Positions 10,219 to 21,714 of a DNA stretch of 64,000 bases are shown one piece after another. The position numbers and the translations under genes were made by a program. Numbering within the stretch: the first letter of the stretch is position 1; each line of letters opens with the position of its first letter. Origin of the DNA: Haloplanus natans DSM 17983 (GTDB taxonomy: Archaea > Halobacteriota > Halobacteria > Halobacteriales > Haloferacaceae); assembly GCF_000427685.1 (NCBI RefSeq), contig NZ_KE386573.1:2030938-2094937 (forward strand), read 5' to 3'. The notes under the pieces were generated by a model that did no database searches, was not told the origin of the DNA, and saw only the letters and a list, made by a program, of their open reading frames with translations.

Positions 10219-11820
10219 CTACTGGCGCCAGTACTCCGGCGTGAGACAGACCAGTACCGGGAGGATTTCGAGACGGCCGAGCCACATCAGACCGATCATG
10301 AACAGCTTCGACGTGGCCGAGAAGTCGAGGTAGCCGCCCATCGGGCCGACGAGGCCGAACCCCGGGCCGACGTTGCCGAGGGTGGCCGTGACGGCGCTCA
10401 TCGCCTCCAGCACCGACAGCGAGAGGCCGATCCGCTCGGCGTCGAGAAAGAGCAGGGCCGTCCCGACGAAAAACATGACCAGATAGAGGACGGTGAAGGC
10501 GTAGATGCCTCGGATCGCCCGTTCGTCGACCGTCCGGCCAGCGAGGCGGACGGGGCGCACCGCCTCGGGATGGGCCGTCGTGAACAGCTCACGCCGGATC
10601 GATTTGAGGATGACGTACCACCGGACGACCTTGATCCCCCCGCCGGTCGAGCCGGCCGAACCGCCGACGAACATGGCAAAGAGGAGGAGATACTGTGCGG
10701 ACGGCCCCCACGCGTTGAAGTCGATGCTGGCGTAGCCCGTCGTGGTCACGAGCGAGACGATCTGGAAGACGGCGTGTCGCAGCGCCGGTTCGGCGTTGCC
10801 GATCAGCGTCGCCCGAACCCCGGCGAGATACGTCGAGTCGTAGGTCGCCTCCGGCGGGACGAACGTCGCCATGCCGTTCCCGACGAACAGGAGCGCGGCG
10901 ACCAGTCCCGTGAGCACGGCCATCACGCCGACGTAAAACCGGAACTCCGTGTCGCCGGGGAGCCGTTTCGGCTCGCCCGTCAACGCGTGCCAGAACAGCG
11001 CGAAGTTCGTCCCCGCGGCGATCATGAAGGGGACGATCAGCCACTGAACGGCCGCGGAGAAGGCCTCGATACTCCTGGCTTCGGGCGAGAACCCGCCGGT
11101 CGGCATCGTCGTCAGCCCGTGCGAGACGGCGTTGTACGCGTCCATCGCCGGCGCCATCCCGCCGAGGTGGAGCGCGTAGAGCAGGAGAATCTCCAGGACG
11201 GTGAACCCGAGATACGCGCCCCAGAGCGCCCGCGCCGTCTCCGCGATTCGGGGTGTGAGTTTCTCGATACCCGGTCCCGGCGCCTCGGCGTCGATCAACT
11301 GCGCGCCGCCGACCGAGAGTTCGGGAAGGATGGCCACCGCGAGGACGACGATTCCCATCCCGCCGAGCCACTGGGTGAGTTGGCGCCAGAGCATGATCCC
11401 GTGGCCGTGGGCGTCGAGCGAGATAGTACCGAGAACCGTCGCGCCCGTCGTGGTGAAGCCGCTCATGCTCTCGAACAGCGCGTTCGCGGGGTTCGCGAGC
11501 GTCGACGCGGGCGCCGTCGCCGGGACGAACCCCGGCAGACCGTACGCCTCGATCAGGTACGGGAGGGCGCCGATCAGCGAGACGGCGAGCCACGTCGCGC
11601 TGACCATCAGAAATCCCTCGCGAGCGCCGATATCGGGGTCGGGACGCAGGCGTTCTAGCCCGCCGCCGACGGCGACAGTCACGAGCATCGTCACGAGAAA
11701 GGGGACGACCGATTCGCCGTAGACGACGGCGACAGCCAGCGGAATCGCCAGCGGGACGGCGAGATATTTCAGCACGCTCCCGACGAGACTGAGGCTCGCC
11801 CGGTAGTCGACACGGACCAT
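10219..11820 (-). CDS. trkH: TrkH-family potassium uptake membrane subunit
   Basis: A 533-residue polytopic membrane protein of the TrkH/KtrB superfamily, the K+-conducting subunit. The four pore-loop regions can be picked out: SGFTTTGATV, THGLTTMPTGGFSPEA (read as SHGLTTMPTGGFS), a TTTGYASIDF block, and a final ATLGNVGPGFG. Each carries the selectivity glycine. About ten membrane helices are visible. The gene follows trkA by 56 bp on the same strand. K+ uptake is essential in salt-in haloarchaea. The ending ...LPVLVCLTPEYWRQ is typical of TrkH C-termini. Confidence 0.93.
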   Translation of the reverse strand: MVRVDYRASLSLVGSVLKYLAVPLAIPLAVAVVYGESVVPFLVTMLVTVAVGGGLERLRPDPDIGAREGFLMVSATWLAVSLIGALPYLIEAYGLPGFVPATAPASTLANPANALFESMSGFTTTGATVLGTISLDAHGHGIMLWRQLTQWLGGMGIVVLAVAILPELSVGGAQLIDAEAPGPGIEKLTPRIAETARALWGAYLGFTVLEILLLYALHLGGMAPAMDAYNAVSHGLTTMPTGGFSPEARSIEAFSAAVQWLIVPFMIAAGTNFALFWHALTGEPKRLPGDTEFRFYVGVMAVLTGLVAALLFVGNGMATFVPPEATYDSTYLAGVRATLIGNAEPALRHAVFQIVSLVTTTGYASIDFNAWGPSAQYLLLFAMFVGGSAGSTGGGIKVVRWYVILKSIRRELFTTAHPEAVRPVRLAGRTVDERAIRGIYAFTVLYLVMFFVGTALLFLDAERIGLSLSVLEAMSAVTATLGNVGPGFGLVGPMGGYLDFSATSKLFMIGLMWLGRLEILPVLVCLTPEYWRQ

Positions 11821-11876
11821 CGAAACGTTCGATCCATCGGTGGTTGACGGAGCGGCTTTAAACTGCTGACATCCGC

Positions 11877-13214
11877 CTACAACTGCGGTGTCACCTCGTC
11901 GACCACGCAGGCGTCGAGGAAGGCGACGACGTGGTCGTCGGGTTCGATAACGGTGTCGCCACGCGGCGTGATGAACCGATCGCCGCGGGTGATGGCGCCG
12001 ATGACGACGCCGGCTGGCAAGTCGGCCACCGACTCGTGGATTGGCCGGCCCGCGAGGACGCTCTCCTCGTCGATTTCCACCTCGAGCACCTCGGCTCGGT
12101 CGCTCTCGATGATGGCGACGTTCTCCGCGCCGCCGTCGCGGGTGAAGCGAGTGATCTCCTCGGCCACCACCTCGCGTGGGTTGACGCCCACGTCGACGCC
12201 CACCGTCTCGAACAGTTCGACGTACTCCGAGGCGTCGATGACCGCCACTGTCCGGTCGACGCCGAGTCGCCGCGCCAGTAGGGAGACGAGGAGGTTCTTC
12301 TCGTCGGAGTCGAGCGCCGCGACGAGGAAGTCGGCGTCGCCGACGTGTTCGCGCTCGAGGAAGTCGATGTCGGTCGCGTCGTTCTCCATGACCATCGTGT
12401 TCGGGAGGTCCTCGGCGAGTTGCCGGGCGCGCTCGGCGTCCTGTTCGATCAGTCGCGGCTTGAACCCGCGCTCACCGAGTAGACGGGCGACGTGGTAGCC
12501 GATTTCGCTCCCGCCGACGATCACCACCTCCTCCGCCGTGCCCGGGGGCTCGTCCGGGGCGATGGTGGTCGCGAACCCGCGGACTGCCTGGGGGTTCCCG
12601 ATCACCACCACCCGGTCGCGCTCGTTGAGGACCGACTCCCCCCGTGGGATCTCCAAGTCGTCGTCGCGGAGGATGGCCGCGAACGTGAGTTCCTCGAACC
12701 GATCCGCCTCGGCGACGGTCTGGTTCGTCACGGGACTGCCCGTCGGAATCTCGAACTCAGCCATCTGGACCCGCCCACCGGCGAAGGAGTCCACGTCGCG
12801 GGCGGCCGGGATGCCGACCACGCGGACGATTGATTCGGCCGCCAGCAGGTTCGTACAGACGATGAAGTCGATGCCGAACGCGCGTTCGGAGCGCTCCCAC
12901 GTCCGGAGGTACTCCGTGTTCTTCACGCGCGCGACGGTGAACGCGTCGCTCACGGCGCGGGTCGTCGCACAGATGACGATGTTCGTCTCGTCGTCGTCGG
13001 TGCTCGCGATGACCATGTCGGCCTCGTCGACGCCCGCCTCCTCCAGCGTCGACAGCGACGTGCCGTCGCCCTGGACGGCCAGTACGTCCAGTGAGTACGT
13101 CAGTTCCTCGACCCGGTCGCCGTCTTCGTCCACCACGACGATGTCGTGGGTGCCGGCCAGGTCGGCTGCGATGCTCGACCCGACCTGCCCCGCCCCGACG
13201 ATGATCACGTGCAC
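11877..13214 (-). CDS. trkA: Trk system potassium uptake regulatory subunit TrkA
   Basis: A 445-residue cytosolic protein with two RCK (KTN) units. The first NAD-binding motif is IIVGAGQVGSSIA (residues 4-16), with an acidic ribose-binding strand end (VVDEDGD). The second is VVIVGGSEIGYHVA near residue 229. Each is followed by a TrkA-C (RCK_C) domain, the last ending VIEPDDHVVAFLD. It gates TrkH by binding nucleotides. It lies directly upstream of trkH in one operon, and 65 bp downstream of the SRPBCC gene on the same strand. Confidence 0.93.
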   Translation of the reverse strand: MHVIIVGAGQVGSSIAADLAGTHDIVVVDEDGDRVEELTYSLDVLAVQGDGTSLSTLEEAGVDEADMVIASTDDDETNIVICATTRAVSDAFTVARVKNTEYLRTWERSERAFGIDFIVCTNLLAAESIVRVVGIPAARDVDSFAGGRVQMAEFEIPTGSPVTNQTVAEADRFEELTFAAILRDDDLEIPRGESVLNERDRVVVIGNPQAVRGFATTIAPDEPPGTAEEVVIVGGSEIGYHVARLLGERGFKPRLIEQDAERARQLAEDLPNTMVMENDATDIDFLEREHVGDADFLVAALDSDEKNLLVSLLARRLGVDRTVAVIDASEYVELFETVGVDVGVNPREVVAEEITRFTRDGGAENVAIIESDRAEVLEVEIDEESVLAGRPIHESVADLPAGVVIGAITRGDRFITPRGDTVIEPDDHVVAFLDACVVDEVTPQL

Positions 13215-14179: not shown

Positions 14180-16591
14180 TCAGTCGTCGGCGACGGGCGC
14201 CGCCGGTTCCGGGCTGGCTTCCGGGCGGTCCGAAATCGGCGTCCACGCGAGGTCGCCCGCGTAGTGGAACGCGCGGTGGTCCTGCTCCGGGTCGACGACG
14301 GTCAGCGAGAGCCAGCCGTTGTCGAGGAGGCCGGCCACGTTCGCGTGGTCGGCCAGCGTATCGGTGACGCGGTCGACCGGCGCGTGGATCACCGTCGAGA
14401 GGCGGAGCGGCTGATGGTAGGGTTCGTCGGCCACGCTCCACAGCGACTGGCGCGGAAGGCCAGTCAGCAGGTCGCCGCCGTTGCCCTGGTAGACGCCGAC
14501 GTTGCCGACGGGGTTCTGGGTCACCTTCGACCCGCTCCCGTAGGCCGCGTTGTCGACTGTCGCGAAGTAGTACTGCGCGTTGATCCACTGGGTGACGACC
14601 ATCGGCCCGGTCAGGATGGCTTCGAGGGCGTCGCCGTCGGGGTCGGTCCGCCAGTCGTAGGAGTGGAGAAAGGTCCGGCCGTCCAGATCCAGGTCGTCGG
14701 TGAGCGCGCGCGGGCCGACGACGAAGCCGGCGTTGCCGGCCAGCCCCCACTCGGGGCGTGTCTCGGCCCAGTCGGCGGCGCGGCGCTCGGTTTCGTGGAC
14801 GGCCGCGTCGGCGTCCGCGCCCATGTCGCCCGCACGTTCGGCGGCCGCCCCGGCGCGGGCCGTCGCGAGGTCCGCGCGGAGTTGTTCGATGTCGTCGGCG
14901 TGTGTCTCGGGAACGTCGCCGGCGTACAGTTCGATTTCGTCGGTCGTCGTGTTGTGCTCGGCGGCGACGAAGACGGTGTCCGCGGGCACGTCGATGTCGC
15001 GGTCACGGAGGTGCGTTTTGACCGCCTCGTCGTTGCAGATGGCGGCGAGGACGCGGGCGTTCGGCCCCCCGGCCGAACCGGCGCAGGCGCCACAGTCGAG
15101 GCTGGAGTCGAACGGGTTGTTCGCCGTCTCACTGGCGTGGCCGGTGAAGACGACGATACGGGCGAACGCCTCCCAGCCCATGCAGTCGAAGGCCGTCGCG
15201 GCGTAGTCGACCTTCTCCTCGAGCGTGAGGCCCTCGCGGAGTTCGGTGACGGCATCGGGGTTGTAATCGACCGTCGGCGCGCAGAACTCGTGAGTGTCTG
15301 GAATCCGGTCGCCGATAGCGTCGCGAAGGTCGTGGACACGCCCGGGAATCAGCGTCCGCGCGGCCAGGGTGGCCCCGTAGCCCGCGCCCGCGCCCTCGAC
15401 GAAGCTGAACGCCGTCGCGGCGTTGGCTTTGAGGCGTTTCACCGCCGTCGTCCCGGCGTCGAGCGCGGCGTGCCAGCGGTCGTGGGTGTCGCACTCGCCG
15501 TCGGTCGTCGTCGGCCGCTCCGAGATGCGGTGGTCGGCGTCGAGGATTGGCGGACAGGCGTCGACGGTCACGTCCGAATCGTAGCCGGCGTAGCGCATCG
15601 GCACGCCGAAGAAGCCGGCGTAGCCGTGGGTTTCGTAGTCGCCAGCGGCTTCGACGTGGCGACGGATGATTTCCGAGCGCGTGTCGATACAGAAGACGAG
15701 TTGGGCGTCCGGGCGGCCGTCGTCCGCCTCCGTGACCGACGCGCTCGCGTCGGTGAGGGCGTCGACCAGTTCGTCGCGGTAGGTCGCCTCCCACGCCGTC
15801 AGCCACACCTCTGGGAGCGGGACGGCGCCGTCGGAAGCGTCCGTGCCCTCGGCCTCGTCTACGGACGCAACGAGGGGCGCGTCGAACTGGTCGACAAGCG
15901 CCAGACGGACCGCCAGATAGCCCGAGAGCGTGATCGGATACGCCGACTGCCAGGCGTCGTCGTCGGCCGCGCGGCGTTTCAGAAAGCCCGTCCATCCGGG
16001 GAGCGCGGCTAGCTGGAACTCGAAGATGTCCTGCCACTCGCCGACCGGCTTCGCGTCGAGGTAGTCGCGGATGGCGTCGACGGGGCGGTCGGGAAGGGCG
16101 GCGATGGCGTCGCCATTTGGAACCTCGTCGTCGTGGGGCGCGACGGTGCGAAACGCCGCGTAGAACCCCCGCTCGCGGTTCGGCATGGGCCACTCCGCGC
16201 GCCCTTGGTCCATGAAGGCCGCCAGCCACTTCGTCAGGACGGCGTCGACCCGGTCGGTGGCCGTCGTCGCGTCGGGCGTCTCGGCCGGCGACTCGGCGGC
16301 CAGCCGGTCGAGCGACGCCTCGGGGTCGGCATCGTAGCCGTGCGCGGTCAGTTCGGCCGCGAGCAGTTCCGGATCGATCCGCCCGTCCGCCAGCGCGTGA
16401 CGGAAGACGTCAGCGCTCGGGTAGCCGTCGCCGCCGAGCAGCCGTTCGGCGTCGGCGACGGCCTCGTGGAACGGCCGGTCCTCGAAGCCGGCGAGCGGGT
16501 TGGCCGTGACGAACGAGTGGAGCGGCCAGACGGAGCCGACCGCGTCGGCTGCCGCGTCGATACTCTCCTCGATGGCGGGGTCAGTACTCAT
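14180..16591 (-). CDS. dabA: DabA, inorganic carbon uptake subunit (DUF2309/UPF0753)
   Basis: An 803-residue DUF2309 protein. In bacteria DabA is the cytoplasmic, zinc-containing, carbonic-anhydrase-like half of the DAB dissolved-inorganic-carbon pump. Opening motifs are VWPLHSFVTANPLAGFEDRPF. The beta-carbonic-anhydrase-like site is FCIDTRSEIIRRH (Cys301, Asp303, Arg305), with His485 (TGHASETANNPF) and Cys500 (SLDCGACAGSAGGPNAR). The C-x-D and H-14x-C spacings equal those I recall for the Halothiobacillus enzyme (C351/D353 and H524/C539). All putative ligands are therefore present. Its start overlaps the end of dabB by 11 bp. Confidence 0.9.
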   Translation of the reverse strand: MSTDPAIEESIDAAADAVGSVWPLHSFVTANPLAGFEDRPFHEAVADAERLLGGDGYPSADVFRHALADGRIDPELLAAELTAHGYDADPEASLDRLAAESPAETPDATTATDRVDAVLTKWLAAFMDQGRAEWPMPNRERGFYAAFRTVAPHDDEVPNGDAIAALPDRPVDAIRDYLDAKPVGEWQDIFEFQLAALPGWTGFLKRRAADDDAWQSAYPITLSGYLAVRLALVDQFDAPLVASVDEAEGTDASDGAVPLPEVWLTAWEATYRDELVDALTDASASVTEADDGRPDAQLVFCIDTRSEIIRRHVEAAGDYETHGYAGFFGVPMRYAGYDSDVTVDACPPILDADHRISERPTTTDGECDTHDRWHAALDAGTTAVKRLKANAATAFSFVEGAGAGYGATLAARTLIPGRVHDLRDAIGDRIPDTHEFCAPTVDYNPDAVTELREGLTLEEKVDYAATAFDCMGWEAFARIVVFTGHASETANNPFDSSLDCGACAGSAGGPNARVLAAICNDEAVKTHLRDRDIDVPADTVFVAAEHNTTTDEIELYAGDVPETHADDIEQLRADLATARAGAAAERAGDMGADADAAVHETERRAADWAETRPEWGLAGNAGFVVGPRALTDDLDLDGRTFLHSYDWRTDPDGDALEAILTGPMVVTQWINAQYYFATVDNAAYGSGSKVTQNPVGNVGVYQGNGGDLLTGLPRQSLWSVADEPYHQPLRLSTVIHAPVDRVTDTLADHANVAGLLDNGWLSLTVVDPEQDHRAFHYAGDLAWTPISDRPEASPEPAAPVADD

Positions 16592-18050
16592 CGTATTCCT
16601 CCGTAGTGGTCAACAGCGTGTCAGATGCCGGGTGGCTAGCGTTCAACAGCGCGACGTACAGGCGAGTGCTGTGTCGGTAGACGCCGCTCTCGACGGCAAG
16701 ATACGCGGCGACAAAGGCTGCGGCGACGAGTCCGTGAACGGGCGTCAATGCTGCGTGCTGGCCGACCGCGGGGAGGCCGGCCAGTGCGCCCTCGATCAGA
16801 CGGTAGATGCCCGCGTAGACGGCGAGCGCGGGGAGGGCGACCAGCGGAACCCCGCCGTAGCGAACCGCGGCCGGCAGATCGGCCCGCACCACGACGCCGC
16901 GGGCGGCCTGCAGAACCGTCAGGACGACCAGCAGCGTGAGCAGGAGGCCGCTCCCCTCGCCTTTGCCCGTGAGGGTGGCGAACAGAGCGCCGCCCGCGAG
17001 CGCGGTGAGGGCGACGACGGCGAGGCCGAGGGGACCCGTTCCGTCCCCAGTCGTCCCCGTTGGACTCCCGTGTTCTACCCGGCTCCCCGACGCGAGGAAC
17101 TGGTACGCCTTGTAGAACCCGTGCAGAATCAGGTGGGTGACGGCGGCGCTGAAAAAGCCCAGCCCGGCCTGCACGATCATGAATCCCATCTGGCCGACGG
17201 TCGAGCAGCCGAGTTTGCTCTTGATATCCGGCCGAACGGTTTTCAGGAACTTTCCGAGCAGCGCGCTCGTCGCGCCAACGAGGACGACGGCGAGCATGAC
17301 GCCGGCGTCGACGGTGACGACCGGCGCGAACCGGGTTAGGAGGATGCCGCCGGCGTTGACGAAGCCGGCGTGCATCAGTGCCGAGGCGGGCGTCGGCGCC
17401 GTCATCGACGAGAGCAGCCACGTGTGGAAGGGGACGAGCGCCGACTGGATCATCGCCGCCAGCAGGAGCGCGCCGGCGGCGGCGAGCACGGCCGGCGACG
17501 AGTCGACGGCCGACGCGACGCCGGAGACGGTCGTTACCCCGGTGTCCCACCACAGGATCAGGAGGGCAACGGCGAGCGACGCGCTACTCCCGAGGAAGTA
17601 CCGGCGAGCAAGCGAGGCCGCCGCCTCCGCCTGGGGCCAGCCGTTCGCGTGACCGATCAGGCCCGCCATCACCAGCCCCATCGCGAGCCACGCGATTCCG
17701 AACAGGGCGAGGTGGTCGGCCGCGACCAGCACCATCACGATCAGGGTGAACGCGAACACGCGTCCGAAGAACTGATCGACGGCCCACTCGCCCGCCATGT
17801 AGCGCCGCGAGTAACTGTGGACGATGCCGCTGAAGAAGGTGACTGTCACCCACATCACGGTGGTCAGCCCGTCGACAGCGAGCCCCGGGAGCGCCCACGG
17901 CTCGCCGCTCCGGAACTGGGCGACGAACGCGACGAGGCTCGCGAGCCACAGGAGCCACACGAGTCGCGTCAGCGTCCGGGGCACGCGTGACGCCGTCTCG
18001 GTCGGTGTCGGAAGCTGTCCTACGATCGTCGTCTGCGTTTGATCCGTCAT
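16581..18050 (-). CDS. dabB: DabB, proton/cation-conducting membrane subunit (NuoL/MrpA-like)
   Basis: A 489-residue polytopic protein of the NADH-dehydrogenase ND5/NuoL/MrpA antiporter family. Typical blocks are GIVHSYSRRYMAGE, SALVPFHTWLLSSMTAPTPA (the proton-channel helix with conserved His and Pro), ALMHAGFVNAGG, LGCSTVGQMGFMIVQAGLG and HLILHGFYKAYQFLASGS. No other complex I or Mrp subunit is adjacent. Pairing with DUF2309 is the hallmark of DabB, which couples an ion gradient to carbon uptake by DabA. The coupling ion (H+ or Na+) in this halophile is unknown. An AT-rich promoter region lies upstream (about 18110-18180). Confidence 0.88.
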   Translation of the reverse strand: MTDQTQTTIVGQLPTPTETASRVPRTLTRLVWLLWLASLVAFVAQFRSGEPWALPGLAVDGLTTVMWVTVTFFSGIVHSYSRRYMAGEWAVDQFFGRVFAFTLIVMVLVAADHLALFGIAWLAMGLVMAGLIGHANGWPQAEAAASLARRYFLGSSASLAVALLILWWDTGVTTVSGVASAVDSSPAVLAAAGALLLAAMIQSALVPFHTWLLSSMTAPTPASALMHAGFVNAGGILLTRFAPVVTVDAGVMLAVVLVGATSALLGKFLKTVRPDIKSKLGCSTVGQMGFMIVQAGLGFFSAAVTHLILHGFYKAYQFLASGSRVEHGSPTGTTGDGTGPLGLAVVALTALAGGALFATLTGKGEGSGLLLTLLVVLTVLQAARGVVVRADLPAAVRYGGVPLVALPALAVYAGIYRLIEGALAGLPAVGQHAALTPVHGLVAAAFVAAYLAVESGVYRHSTRLYVALLNASHPASDTLLTTTEEYDEY

Positions 18051-18281
18051 CGGTTGATCCGTTCACGACCGCAATGATTCCGGTCGCCTTCACCCACTAC
18101 TGCGAACGTACTGCCTATTAATACTATCTATATTACCAAATCGTTCTCGGAAAGGAGTATCATAGAACATTATGGTTATATTCGTGCGATTGATTGACAC
18201 GGGACGAGCGACGGCTCGCCACAGGGGGAGTCGTCTCCCGGTGGTGTATCGACCGGAGCGTTCGCGAATCCAGTCTAGAAA

Positions 18282-18289
18282 AACTATAT
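18282..18289 (+). promoter_or_regulatory. BoxA of the amidohydrolase gene
   Basis: The AACTATAT block is centred about 28 nt before the ATG at 18314. The spacing supports that start and a nearly leaderless mRNA. Confidence 0.45.
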
Positions 18290-18313
18290 CGGTATCCGGT
18301 GTACGACTCGGGT

Positions 18314-19330
18314 ATGGAAGAGCTCGCAGGGACCGTTCTCGTCGGGGAGTCGTTCGAGCCGATCCGTGGCCGCGTCGTACTCGACGAGGGTCGGATCGAG
18401 GCCGTCGAAGAGACGAATACGTCGTCGACGGACATCGTGTTGCCGGCCTTCGTCAACGCTCACACCCACCTCGGCGACTCCGTGGCGAAGGAGGCCGCCG
18501 TTGGCCTCTCGCTCGACGAGGCAGTCGCCCCGCCGAACAGCCTGAAACATCGCCGACTGGCGGCGGCCAACCGGTCCGAACTCGTGACGGCGATGCGCCG
18601 AACGCTTCGGTTCATGGAGCGTACGGGCACCGTCTCCACCCTGGATTTCCGCGAGTCGGGGGTGGTCGGCGCTCGCGCGCTGCGCGAAGCCGCACGCACG
18701 GTGACCGTCGAGCCGTTCGTCTTCGGGAGCGGGGATCCGTCCGTCCTCGAGGTGGCCGACGGGTACGGGGCGAGCGGGGCGAACGACGCCGACTTCGCCG
18801 ACGAGCGTGCCGCGGCCGGGGAGGCCGGCGTCCCCTTCGCTATCCACGCCGGCGAACCGGACGCGACGGACATCCACCCCGCGCTGAATCTGGACCCGGA
18901 CCTGCTCGTCCACATGGTCCACGCCGAGGACGAGCACCTCGAACGCGTCGCTGCGGAGTCGGTGCCGGTCGCTATCTGTCCGCGTGCGAACACCGTCTTG
19001 GGTGTCGGACGAGCACCCGTCCGGGAGTTGCTCGATCACACCACCGTCGCGCTCGGGACGGACAACGTCATGTTGAACCCGCCGTCGATGTTTCGGGAGA
19101 TGGCCTACACCGCGAGGGAGTTCGACGTGACCGCCCGGGAGGTGCTCCGGATGGCGACGACGGCCGGTGCGGACATCGCCGGCCTCGACTGCGGCGTGAT
19201 CGCTCCCGGGCGCCGGGCGGCGCTGCTCGTGGTGGACGGCGACTCCGACAATCTGTGTGGGTCGGCCGATCCGGTGGCGGCAGTCGTTCGGCGCGCGACC
19301 GGCCTCGATGTCGAACGCGTGGTGTGTTAG
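18314..19330 (+). CDS. Amidohydrolase-superfamily deaminase-like enzyme
   Basis: A 338-residue TIM-barrel amidohydrolase. The metal-binding NAHTHLGDS follows a short beta-sandwich start. Later ligands are AIHAGE, the HMVHAEDEHL segment, and the catalytic Asp in ALGTDNVMLNPPS. Family members deaminate or hydrolyse cyclic amides and nucleobases (cytosine or guanine deaminase, chlorohydrolase type). The exact substrate is not evident. The chosen ATG gives the usual start (MEELAGTVLVGES). The ORF extends upstream to 18194 but would swallow the promoter. The gene is convergent with the Lrp regulator, overlapping by 4 bp. Confidence 0.83.
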   Translation: MEELAGTVLVGESFEPIRGRVVLDEGRIEAVEETNTSSTDIVLPAFVNAHTHLGDSVAKEAAVGLSLDEAVAPPNSLKHRRLAAANRSELVTAMRRTLRFMERTGTVSTLDFRESGVVGARALREAARTVTVEPFVFGSGDPSVLEVADGYGASGANDADFADERAAAGEAGVPFAIHAGEPDATDIHPALNLDPDLLVHMVHAEDEHLERVAAESVPVAICPRANTVLGVGRAPVRELLDHTTVALGTDNVMLNPPSMFREMAYTAREFDVTAREVLRMATTAGADIAGLDCGVIAPGRRAALLVVDGDSDNLCGSADPVAAVVRRATGLDVERVVC

Positions 19331-19797
19331 CCCTCGGACTCGTCGAACTTGCCGAACGGCGTCGTCTCGTGGCTCCGAACGAGGACTTCGTCGGCGACGG
19401 TGAGCCCCATCTCGAGGAGTTCCTGGGCGACCGGCGTGATGTCGTCGTCCGACTCGCCGACGACGGTCACGAGCAGGTTCTGCTCGCCCGTGACCAGTTC
19501 CTGCACCGAGACGACGCCGTCGATGTCCAGTATCTCCGGGATGATCCCTCCCCGTTCCGGAATCGAGGCGGTGCAGTACAGTAGCATGCGGAGCGGATAG
19601 CCCGACTGCTGGTAGTCCACCTCGGCGCTGTATCCCTTGATCACGCCGTCGGATTCGAGCCGCTGGATGCGCTTGCGGACGGTGCTGTCGGAGGTGCCGG
19701 TGCGCTCCGCGATGTCCCCGGACGACGTGTTCCGGGCGTCTTCCTGCAGCGCGTACAGAATCGCCCGGTCCACGTCGTCGATGTCCGCATCGTTCAT
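19327..19797 (-). CDS. Lrp/AsnC family transcriptional regulator
   Basis: A 156-residue feast/famine regulator. The N-terminal winged HTH is DIDDVDRAILYALQEDARN ... ERTGTSDSTVRKRIQRLESDGVIKGY. A C-terminal AsnC/RAM effector domain has strands around SIPERGGIIPEILDIDGVV, with ITPVAQELLEMGLTV after it. The start is at MNDADIDDVD (19797); the longer frame adds an unsupported eight-residue tail. Such regulators sense amino acids or small effectors. It may control the convergent amidohydrolase gene, but no operator can be shown. Confidence 0.88.
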   Translation of the reverse strand: MNDADIDDVDRAILYALQEDARNTSSGDIAERTGTSDSTVRKRIQRLESDGVIKGYSAEVDYQQSGYPLRMLLYCTASIPERGGIIPEILDIDGVVSVQELVTGEQNLLVTVVGESDDDITPVAQELLEMGLTVADEVLVRSHETTPFGKFDESEG

Positions 19798-20043
19798 ACC
19801 CGTACGTCTGCCCCTGCACACTTTATTCGTACGTTGCCCCGGATTGCCGCCGTGGGAGTTGAGACTACAGCGGGATTAGCGGGGCTGTGATGCGTGGTTT
19901 CGGCCGAATCGATGAGCAGAAACTGATTCGGATCGCTTTCTGAACGGCCGTTATTGTTGGATGGTCAATTTATTCGGGGTGTTTCCGAGACCGCGGGTAG
20001 TGTAGCCACTCAGACACCGCGCTACCACGGGGAGAAATCCTCG
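19798..20043. other. Spacer before the transposase relic
   Basis: About 245 bp with no gene. GC content falls toward 19950. One end of the adjacent insertion sequence should lie here, but I could not find matching inverted repeats with the far side (about 21715-21850). Confidence 0.3.
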
Positions 20044-21714
20044 CTATCCGATTCCGGTTTCCTTCTTCAACAGCGCCAGTGTATTGTCAGCTGTCACGAT
20101 CGGCGAGTGTTCGTACTCACCAGTCAACTCAACCTGCACGAGCAGATCGACAGCTCGCCAGATCGAGTACAACAGGCAGGCAAATGCGAAGTAGAAGAAG
20201 CGAAGCCCGAAATCCTTCGACGTCGTCGCCGCCATGAACCGCTTGATCGATCTGTAGCCGCTCTCGATCTCCCACCTGTAGCCATACTCCGTGAGGTGCC
20301 CGCTCCCCCGATTCGTCATGAACACCGAATACTGCCGGTGATCGTCATGCTCGGAGTCCTCTTTCCGCCGGTAGATCAGCGTCGTCTCGTGCCACTCGTT
20401 CTTCCCGAGGTGGAGCTTTCGGCCGGTCTCGTATCGGTCCTGGTCGCGCTGAAGCAACCGCTTCGCCTGAGCCTTCTCGCTTCTGCATCCGCTTGGGAAC
20501 GACATACGACAGGCCACGCTGGCTGAGCATCTCCAGGACGTGCTGACTATCGAACTCTCGGTCCATCAGCACGTTATCGACGTGAACGAGGTCCTCAGCC
20601 GAATCCACCAAGTCCTCGACGATTTCTAGTCGTGTCTCTCCCTTTCGGACGGGACGCGCGTCCAGCACGATCGGCACTGCATTCCCTACTAATTGGACGG
20701 TGGCACTGATAGGCGTGCTCGTCGGTCTTCTCCTTCGTGCCGATGATTTCGTCTTCGTGCCCCGTTCTATCACCGGTGAAGGTGTCAGCTTCGGTGACAT
20801 CGATTGCGACGATCCCGGCTTGGAAGAACTCCTCTGTCTCCGCGACTTCGCTCAGGAGCCTGTTGACGGCCTGTCGATACATCTCACGGATCTCTGATAC
20901 CGAGAGATCGCGAATATGCTCTCGACGGACGTGCCCTAGGTGTCCGATCCCGAGTCGACTCATAGAGGAAACTACGAGCCCCCTCATTGGCCGCGAGGCG
21001 CTCGCGAAGTCCGAGATACGTCTGTAAGTCCCAGTAGGCGTTCTCGTGGATCTCACAGCCCTCACCTCGATCCAGTGAGAATGCCGGGAAGACAACGCGA
21101 CTGACGTGCCCCGTAATCGTTGCCGTTTCATCGAGAACAGCTTGATCGTGTGGGTCCGATTCGTCCTCTTCGTCACCGTGAGATGGAAGACATCGTTCTG
21201 GCTCGCGCGGGACGGCGACATCTGCGTTCTGGGCTTTAATAAGTATGGTCCGCGCAGCTGTCTCGACTGTACTGCGAAGCCCGGCAGTGAACCGTTCGTG
21301 CCAGCTGCGCCACAGCGTCGACTGGTTCGGGACACTTTCTAAGCCTAACTGCTCGCAGAGTACCGGGCGACACTCAAGATACTCGATCAGCGCTGTCTCG
21401 TGGTCCCACCCGTGGCATTCTTTCAAGATGAAGACGCGAAAGAGGGTATCCATCCCGTAGCGAGTTGACTCTGCGTACCGGTCGTGCGTGTCGAATCGGA
21501 AATACGCTAGCGAGAGTAGCCGGCCGGAGTTCTCGACCGACCCGTGGCTGTCGTGTCTGAACCAGGTCTGCGAGACAATTCTGATATCCGATTCCAGCCC
21601 ATCTAGCGAGCTTCGCTCGTACAGCGGCGTCGAATCGTACACTGGCCAATCAGCGTGTGGTCGGTCGGCGATCCGTCGAAAGACGGTTCTGCGAGACTCA
21701 CGAGTTGCAGCCAC
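20044..21714 (-). pseudogene. IS4-superfamily DDE transposase, inactivated by at least three frameshifts
   Basis: Read right to left, the protein starts MAATRESRRTVFRRIADRP at 21714. It shifts frame near 20938 (after STRDRTP, into LGHVRREHIRDLSVSEIREM), near 20705 (after KTDEHAYQ, into ATVQLVGNAVPIVLDARPV) and near 20475 (after SYVVPKRMQ, into EKAQAKRLLQRDQ), ending LALLKKETGIG. All DDE landmarks survive in pieces: DVTEAD, the NVLMDREFDS strand, and the YGYRWEIESGYRSIKRF block with the catalytic Glu and the Y-R-E-K signature. It cannot make a full transposase. I could not define terminal inverted repeats or target duplications. High-copy relatives occur on haloarchaeal plasmids. Confidence 0.85.

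Follow-up and report, generated by a model that had tools for sequence, protein, structure and literature searches.

A predicted DAB-type inorganic carbon pump in Haloplanus natans, with a linked Lrp-family gene and a three-box promoter element

The window considered here, a 64,000-nucleotide stretch of the genome of the haloarchaeon Haloplanus natans DSM 17983 (contig NZ_KE386573.1, positions 2,030,938 to 2,094,937), carries on its minus strand two overlapping genes, dabB and dabA, whose products are by every sequence test available a DAB-type system, as well as an Lrp/AsnC-family regulator gene and three regularly spaced boxes upstream of dabB (Table 1). An initial annotation of positions 14180-18050 had proposed such a carbon pump, and that reading stands: the active-site residues align with those of the solved DAB2, and the partner protein groups with DabB. 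Its coordinates are correct for the dabBA pair, but the conserved unit is longer and also includes the Lrp gene, as a proposed dedicated regulator, and the three-box operator. The two frames share exactly the 11 bp noted at the outset, a GGAGG lies immediately 5' of the dabA ATG, and overlap and GGAGG together are a predicted arrangement for translational coupling. The pair is single-copy in the H. natans genome, and the order of these overlapping genes is kept across bacteria and archaea. Open frames of ~1370 aa in two relatives (G291 and G278) were considered as DabA-DabB fusions and rejected, the extension being an upstream overlap in another frame.

DabA matches PF10070 over 747 of 747 model positions with 865 bits (cut-off 25), and its only relative in the PDB by sequence is DabA2 of Halothiobacillus neapolitanus (chain 9rd0_A, E 3e-110), a component of the DAB2 complex, for which a structure and mutants were reported in 2026 (PMC13144422). 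In the alignment with this characterised protein, C351, D353, R355, H524 and C539 of DabA2 fall on C301, D303, R305, H485 and C500, with C301, H485 and C500 as zinc ligands and D303-R305 as the dyad, so that Cys301-x-Asp303, His485 and Cys500, which the initial annotation had singled out, all occupy the expected positions. Glu444 in the membrane finger of DabA2 aligns with E399, and Leu658, which stands in place of the transition-state Gln/His of beta-carbonic anhydrases (beta-CAs), aligns with Leu617. Across 61 haloarchaeal and 63 bacterial DabA the zinc ligands, the dyad and the Leu617 position are invariant; the finger Glu is replaced by Asp or Gly in six bacterial rows and is otherwise kept. 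Mutation of DAB2 at the aligned catalytic and proton-path residues abolishes or impairs function (PMC13144422). An AlphaFold model of DabA (mean pLDDT 77.6) places two long helices on either side of Glu399, as expected for the finger, while its active-site loops have pLDDT below 50.

The membrane subunit DabB matches PF00361 and PF00662, and seven central proton-path residues required for DAB2 activity (Ser256, His260, Lys310, Ser316, His339, His343 and Lys347) correspond to S223, H227, K277, S283, H306, H310 and K314, all invariant in 61 haloarchaeal and 52 bacterial DabB. The terminal ion pair typical of NuoL-type subunits, retained in DAB2, is absent: Lys235 and Asp185, along with Arg182, are replaced by Q202, S156 and L153, the lysine of transmembrane helix 7 (TM7) thus being a glutamine. 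Of 61 haloarchaeal DabB 60 have this Gln, as do 11 of the 52 bacterial ones, and these 11 form a single clade with the haloarchaeal sequences (support 100/99, IQ-TREE), within which the latter are monophyletic (100/98), DabB2 lying elsewhere in the tree. The 11 bacterial members of the clade rule out that the TM7 lysine was first lost in haloarchaea as an innovation of their own. Because DAB2 with alanine at the terminal ion-pair positions still functions, though growth yield drops by 30-60% (PMC13144422), a pump that has lost them could still work, and the lysine-less subclade is a natural experiment as to the charged residues that coupling in the NuoL fold really requires.

DabB might instead be a stray subunit of complex I or of Mrp, with DabA an unrelated neighbour, and in a PDB comparison one NuoL indeed scores 124 bits against 121 for DabB2. 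We regard this as exceedingly improbable given the overlapping genes, their order conserved across bacteria and archaea, and scores far below cut-off for the NCBIfam NuoL and Mrp models. All DabB also stand apart from the NuoL and Mrp-like protein of the same genome, in a tree whose outgroup consists of these two rows only, the Mrp-like one with a doubtful N-terminus; clustering of the partner with Mrp or complex I, which the initial annotation had named as evidence against its reading, is not what the tree returns. Of more substance is the possibility that the pair resembles MpsAB and brings in bicarbonate coupled to sodium, instead of hydrating CO2 with protons as the driving force. Such an importer would suit a cell living in saturated NaCl; haloarchaea face very high external Na+. 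Use of sodium has been argued for the homologous MpsAB of Staphylococcus aureus (PMC13144422), and the lost ion-pair module of DabB can be counted in the same direction. We nevertheless judge it unlikely, since the zinc and dyad residues needed for hydration in DAB2 are all invariant, as are its proton-path residues, and DAB2 itself needs no sodium (PMC13144422). Conservation of the proton path leads us to favour H+ as the driving ion, which the sequence suggests and does not prove.

A motif search 5' of dabB, run on 60 haloarchaeal loci, returned boxes resembling AACCATAATGTTC and AACCAnTCTGTTC in 57-59 of them, with scores 10x those of shuffled sequence. On refinement these became one imperfect palindrome, GAACAnnnTGTTC, present in three copies at steps of 30 or 31 bp. 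The triple-box score exceeds the shuffled 99th percentile in all 60 loci and every shuffle in 59; these scores come from a box model trained on the same 60 loci, while the spacing, on which the model was not trained, gives a sharp peak in the median score at 30 bp and none elsewhere across 20-41 bp. Within the H. natans genome a strict two-box pattern occurs once, at the dabB promoter.

The Lrp gene is also tied to dab. An initial sample of 40 dab loci (~37 genera) has it without exception 5' of dabB and in the same orientation, the same holds for each named haloarchaeal locus whose upstream sequence is long enough, and it adjoins dab in 60 of 60 loci of the operator analysis. Its identity in the sampled loci is 66-89%, usually above the conservation of DabA or DabB. 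With a threshold for orthology of E <1e-60, set in a clear gap of the distribution, an ortholog is present in 209 of 214 dabA-positive haloarchaeal genomes and in 1 of 127 dabA-negative ones. The five dabA-positive exceptions comprise a truncated Lrp at a contig edge beside dabB, a dab at a contig end, two genomes with dabA fragments only, and genome G021, to which we return below. None of the bacterial loci examined has this Lrp; a LysR gene is near dab in three of four plasmid bacterial loci inspected, and the fourth (Nocardia) has an unspecified helix-turn-helix gene. The protein has an AsnC-type helix-turn-helix at its N-terminus (PF13404 and PF13412), and PDB matches to Lrp/AsnC proteins cover residues 10-121, running into the region of the RAM effector domain; PF01037, the model for that domain, is not among the 25 families listed as matches, even at E 10. 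The sensor domain may thus have diverged. Separately, a motif close to AAAGGTAAAGTGCCTTTG, different from the dab boxes, precedes the lrp start by ~30-40 bp in 46 of the 60 loci and may serve autoregulation or some other purpose; nothing like it is evident at 19797-19840 of the window.

Lrp proteins of archaea wrap DNA and bind to sites clustered at intervals of two or three helical turns (PMC2995911; PMC10201364), and the 30-31-bp steps found here match the three-turn spacing of such operators. In P. furiosus, LrpA acts immediately 3' of the TATA element, where it represses by blocking RNA polymerase (PMC2995911). We hypothesize that the neighbouring Lrp-family protein controls dabBA, its dimers settling on the three boxes, three helical turns apart, and wrapping the promoter. 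The default effect would probably be repression by a block to RNA polymerase, because box III directly follows the TATA-like element, and some signal of carbon shortage would relieve it; a repressor released under carbon shortage is the more likely form of control. Alternatively, the Lrp and its boxes may belong to amino-acid or nitrogen control, dab being one of the targets, and the protein may sense an amino acid made from fixed bicarbonate (such as aspartate or glutamate) and not carbon itself. Most Lrp effectors that have been characterised are amino acids (PMC10201364), and haloarchaeal genomes hold many Lrp paralogs; the near-perfect co-occurrence of this Lrp with dabA only, and the single box pair in its own genome, instead indicate a dedicated local regulator. 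This alternative, which bears on the signal and not on the pump, is possible although we do not think it the likely one. Somewhat more doubtful still is an extended proposal, that haloarchaea have a CO2-responsive regulon in which a diverged-sensor Lrp reads inorganic carbon or its immediate fixation product and, through the three-box operator, switches a DAB pump whose DabB subclade dispenses, in coupling ion flow, with the lysine/acid switch known from complex I, Mrp and DAB2.

Table 1. Positions of the dab genes, promoter elements and neighbouring features within the window
Feature	Position	Strand	Basis or remark
dabA, beta-CA-like subunit, 803 aa	14180-16591	-	Open reading frame (ORF) and Pfam; ATG start
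dabB, membrane subunit, 489 aa	16581-18050	-	ORF and Pfam; ATG start
dabB/dabA overlap, 11 bp, ATGAGTACTGA	16581-16591	-	ORF coordinates
Operator box III, AGGCAGTACGTTC	18104-18116	-	Motif refinement; 30 bp from box II; weakest of the three here
TATTAAT, TATA-like element (TTTAAT in most relatives)	18117-18123	-	Directly upstream of box III; putative promoter role
Operator box II, GAACGATTTGGTA	18134-18146	-	Motif refinement; 31 bp from box I
Operator box I, AACCATAATGTTC	18165-18177	-	Motif discovery
Amidohydrolase-family gene, between lrp and dabB	18194-19330	+	ORF and Pfam; true start probably near 18314
Lrp/AsnC-family regulator gene, proposed dedicated regulator of dabBA	19327-19797	-	Likely ATG 19797; mechanical ORF from 19821
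TrkH and TrkA gene pair (potassium uptake)	10219-13214	-	Downstream of dabA
SRPBCC-family gene, 275 aa	13280-14107	-	Between the Trk pair and dabA
Overlapping ORF fragments	20044-21714	-	By eye like a broken transposase gene

The dabA gene (PF10070) is present in 214 of 341 haloarchaeal genomes (63%), including 32 of the 36 that lack a beta-CA as against 182 of the 305 that have one (Fisher p 4e-4, ignoring relatedness), a complementarity that is suggestive only; just 4 of the 341 have neither. Only 21 of 60 loci have a beta-CA gene in the vicinity of dab, and with so few, in differing orientations, direct membership of the dab operon everywhere is ruled out. Arrangements of this kind do occur: in four loci (L065, L066, L077 and L140) lrp and dabB are separated by a distant beta-CA-like gene (26-31% identical) of like orientation, ~2.3 kb upstream of dabA, suggesting lrp-CA-dabB-dabA operons, and in three Haloferax loci (L120, L124 and L132) a carbonic anhydrase gene is directly 3' of dabA.

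The initial annotation had observed no RuBisCO gene nearby and reasoned that autotrophy need not be involved. This extends to the whole H. natans genome (99.8% complete), where no RuBisCO large subunit was detected, and which encodes one phosphoenolpyruvate (PEP) carboxylase. Overall we consider it probable that the pair is a DAB-type vectorial carbonic anhydrase coupled to the proton-motive force and feeding carboxylases in a heterotroph, with dabBA under the neighbouring Lrp through the three boxes. The NuoL-like DabB would let protons flow down the proton-motive force, with the finger helices of DabA, Glu399 near their tip, completing the channel; this movement would open the buried zinc site of DabA, where CO2 would be hydrated one-way to bicarbonate. 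The product would most likely go to carboxylases of anaplerosis and biosynthesis, PEP carboxylase for example, with the pump working in addition to ordinary beta-CAs or in their stead. For activity, ion, pairing of Lrp with the boxes, and sign and signal of regulation, as for a bicarbonate supply in heterotrophy, we infer from the alignments, linkage and gene content set out above.

Several observations weigh against this reading. The haloarchaeal system is known from its sequence, and a Foldseek search with the DabA model, of middling confidence, gave no significant match, with no 9rd entry among the matches listed (library ends 2026-04-08). DabB lacks the terminal ion pairs that raise the output of DAB2. 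Because H. natans encodes two beta-CAs, a pump is not obviously needed there, and a cytosolic carbonic anhydrase would undo any disequilibrium that the pump created; the complementarity of beta-CA and dabA, moreover, falls to p 0.047 within genera. It is linkage and geometry that point to binding of the boxes by Lrp, and two genomes break the linkage. At locus L177, genome G021 has dab without an Lrp ortholog within 1.1 kb upstream, with box III and the TATA-like element intact upstream of dabB and boxes I and II apparently eroded. Genome G129 has the Lrp without dab or triple boxes (locus L176, 7623-8087, 70% identical), beside what look by eye like an MFS-type transporter and a UspA-like gene.

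Of the other genes at the locus, the amidohydrolase-family gene is placed here in only about a quarter of dab loci and is therefore taken as a passenger, not a core part. The TrkH, TrkA and SRPBCC genes downstream of dabA have no counterparts beside dab in the 40 sampled relatives.

The pump itself is already known and common in haloarchaea. DABs have been reported in Euryarchaeota (PMC13144422), and the orthologous pair of Haloferax volcanii (HVO_2410/HVO_2411) was named dabAB in 2021 as a predicted carbon dioxide transporter (PMC8305020), in a paper whose main text describes no regulator, operator or subclade. What looks new is the Lrp switch gene, the strictly spaced three-box site and the membrane subunit without the charged ion-pair module of DAB2, the one pump with a solved structure; a search of the open-licence literature found no report of a dedicated dab Lrp, of the triple operator or of the TM7-Gln subclade. 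DAB pumps have been studied almost only in CO2-fixing bacteria, and here they are common in haloarchaea, RuBisCO-free H. natans included. The dedicated regulator and simple operator offer, in Haloferax volcanii, a genetic handle on why heterotrophs need active CO2 hydration.

Among characterised systems, H. neapolitanus DAB2 (PDB 9rd0, 9rd8 and 9rd9) shares with the window pair the dabB-dabA order, the Cys2His zinc site, the Asp-Arg dyad, the Leu in place of the beta-CA transition-state Gln/His, the finger Glu and the central Lys/His/Ser proton path. It differs in its longer DabB (551 aa as against 489), in the changes Lys235 to Gln202, Asp185 to Ser156, Arg182 to Leu153 and Ala703 to Gly662, and in that the window pair has an Lrp neighbour and a host genome free of RuBisCO. 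MpsAB of S. aureus belongs to the same DabAB superfamily (PMC13144422) and is set apart by its description as a proposed Na+/bicarbonate symporter. On the regulatory side, the operators of Ss-LrpB and BarR in Sulfolobales are likewise built of multiple semi-palindromic boxes in regular phase that an Lrp oligomer wraps, and P. furiosus LrpA similarly borders the TATA element on its downstream side. Compared with all three, the dab operator is distinguished by its box, GAACAnnnTGTTC, by steps of 30-31 bp throughout, and by a target that is a carbon pump rather than amino-acid genes.

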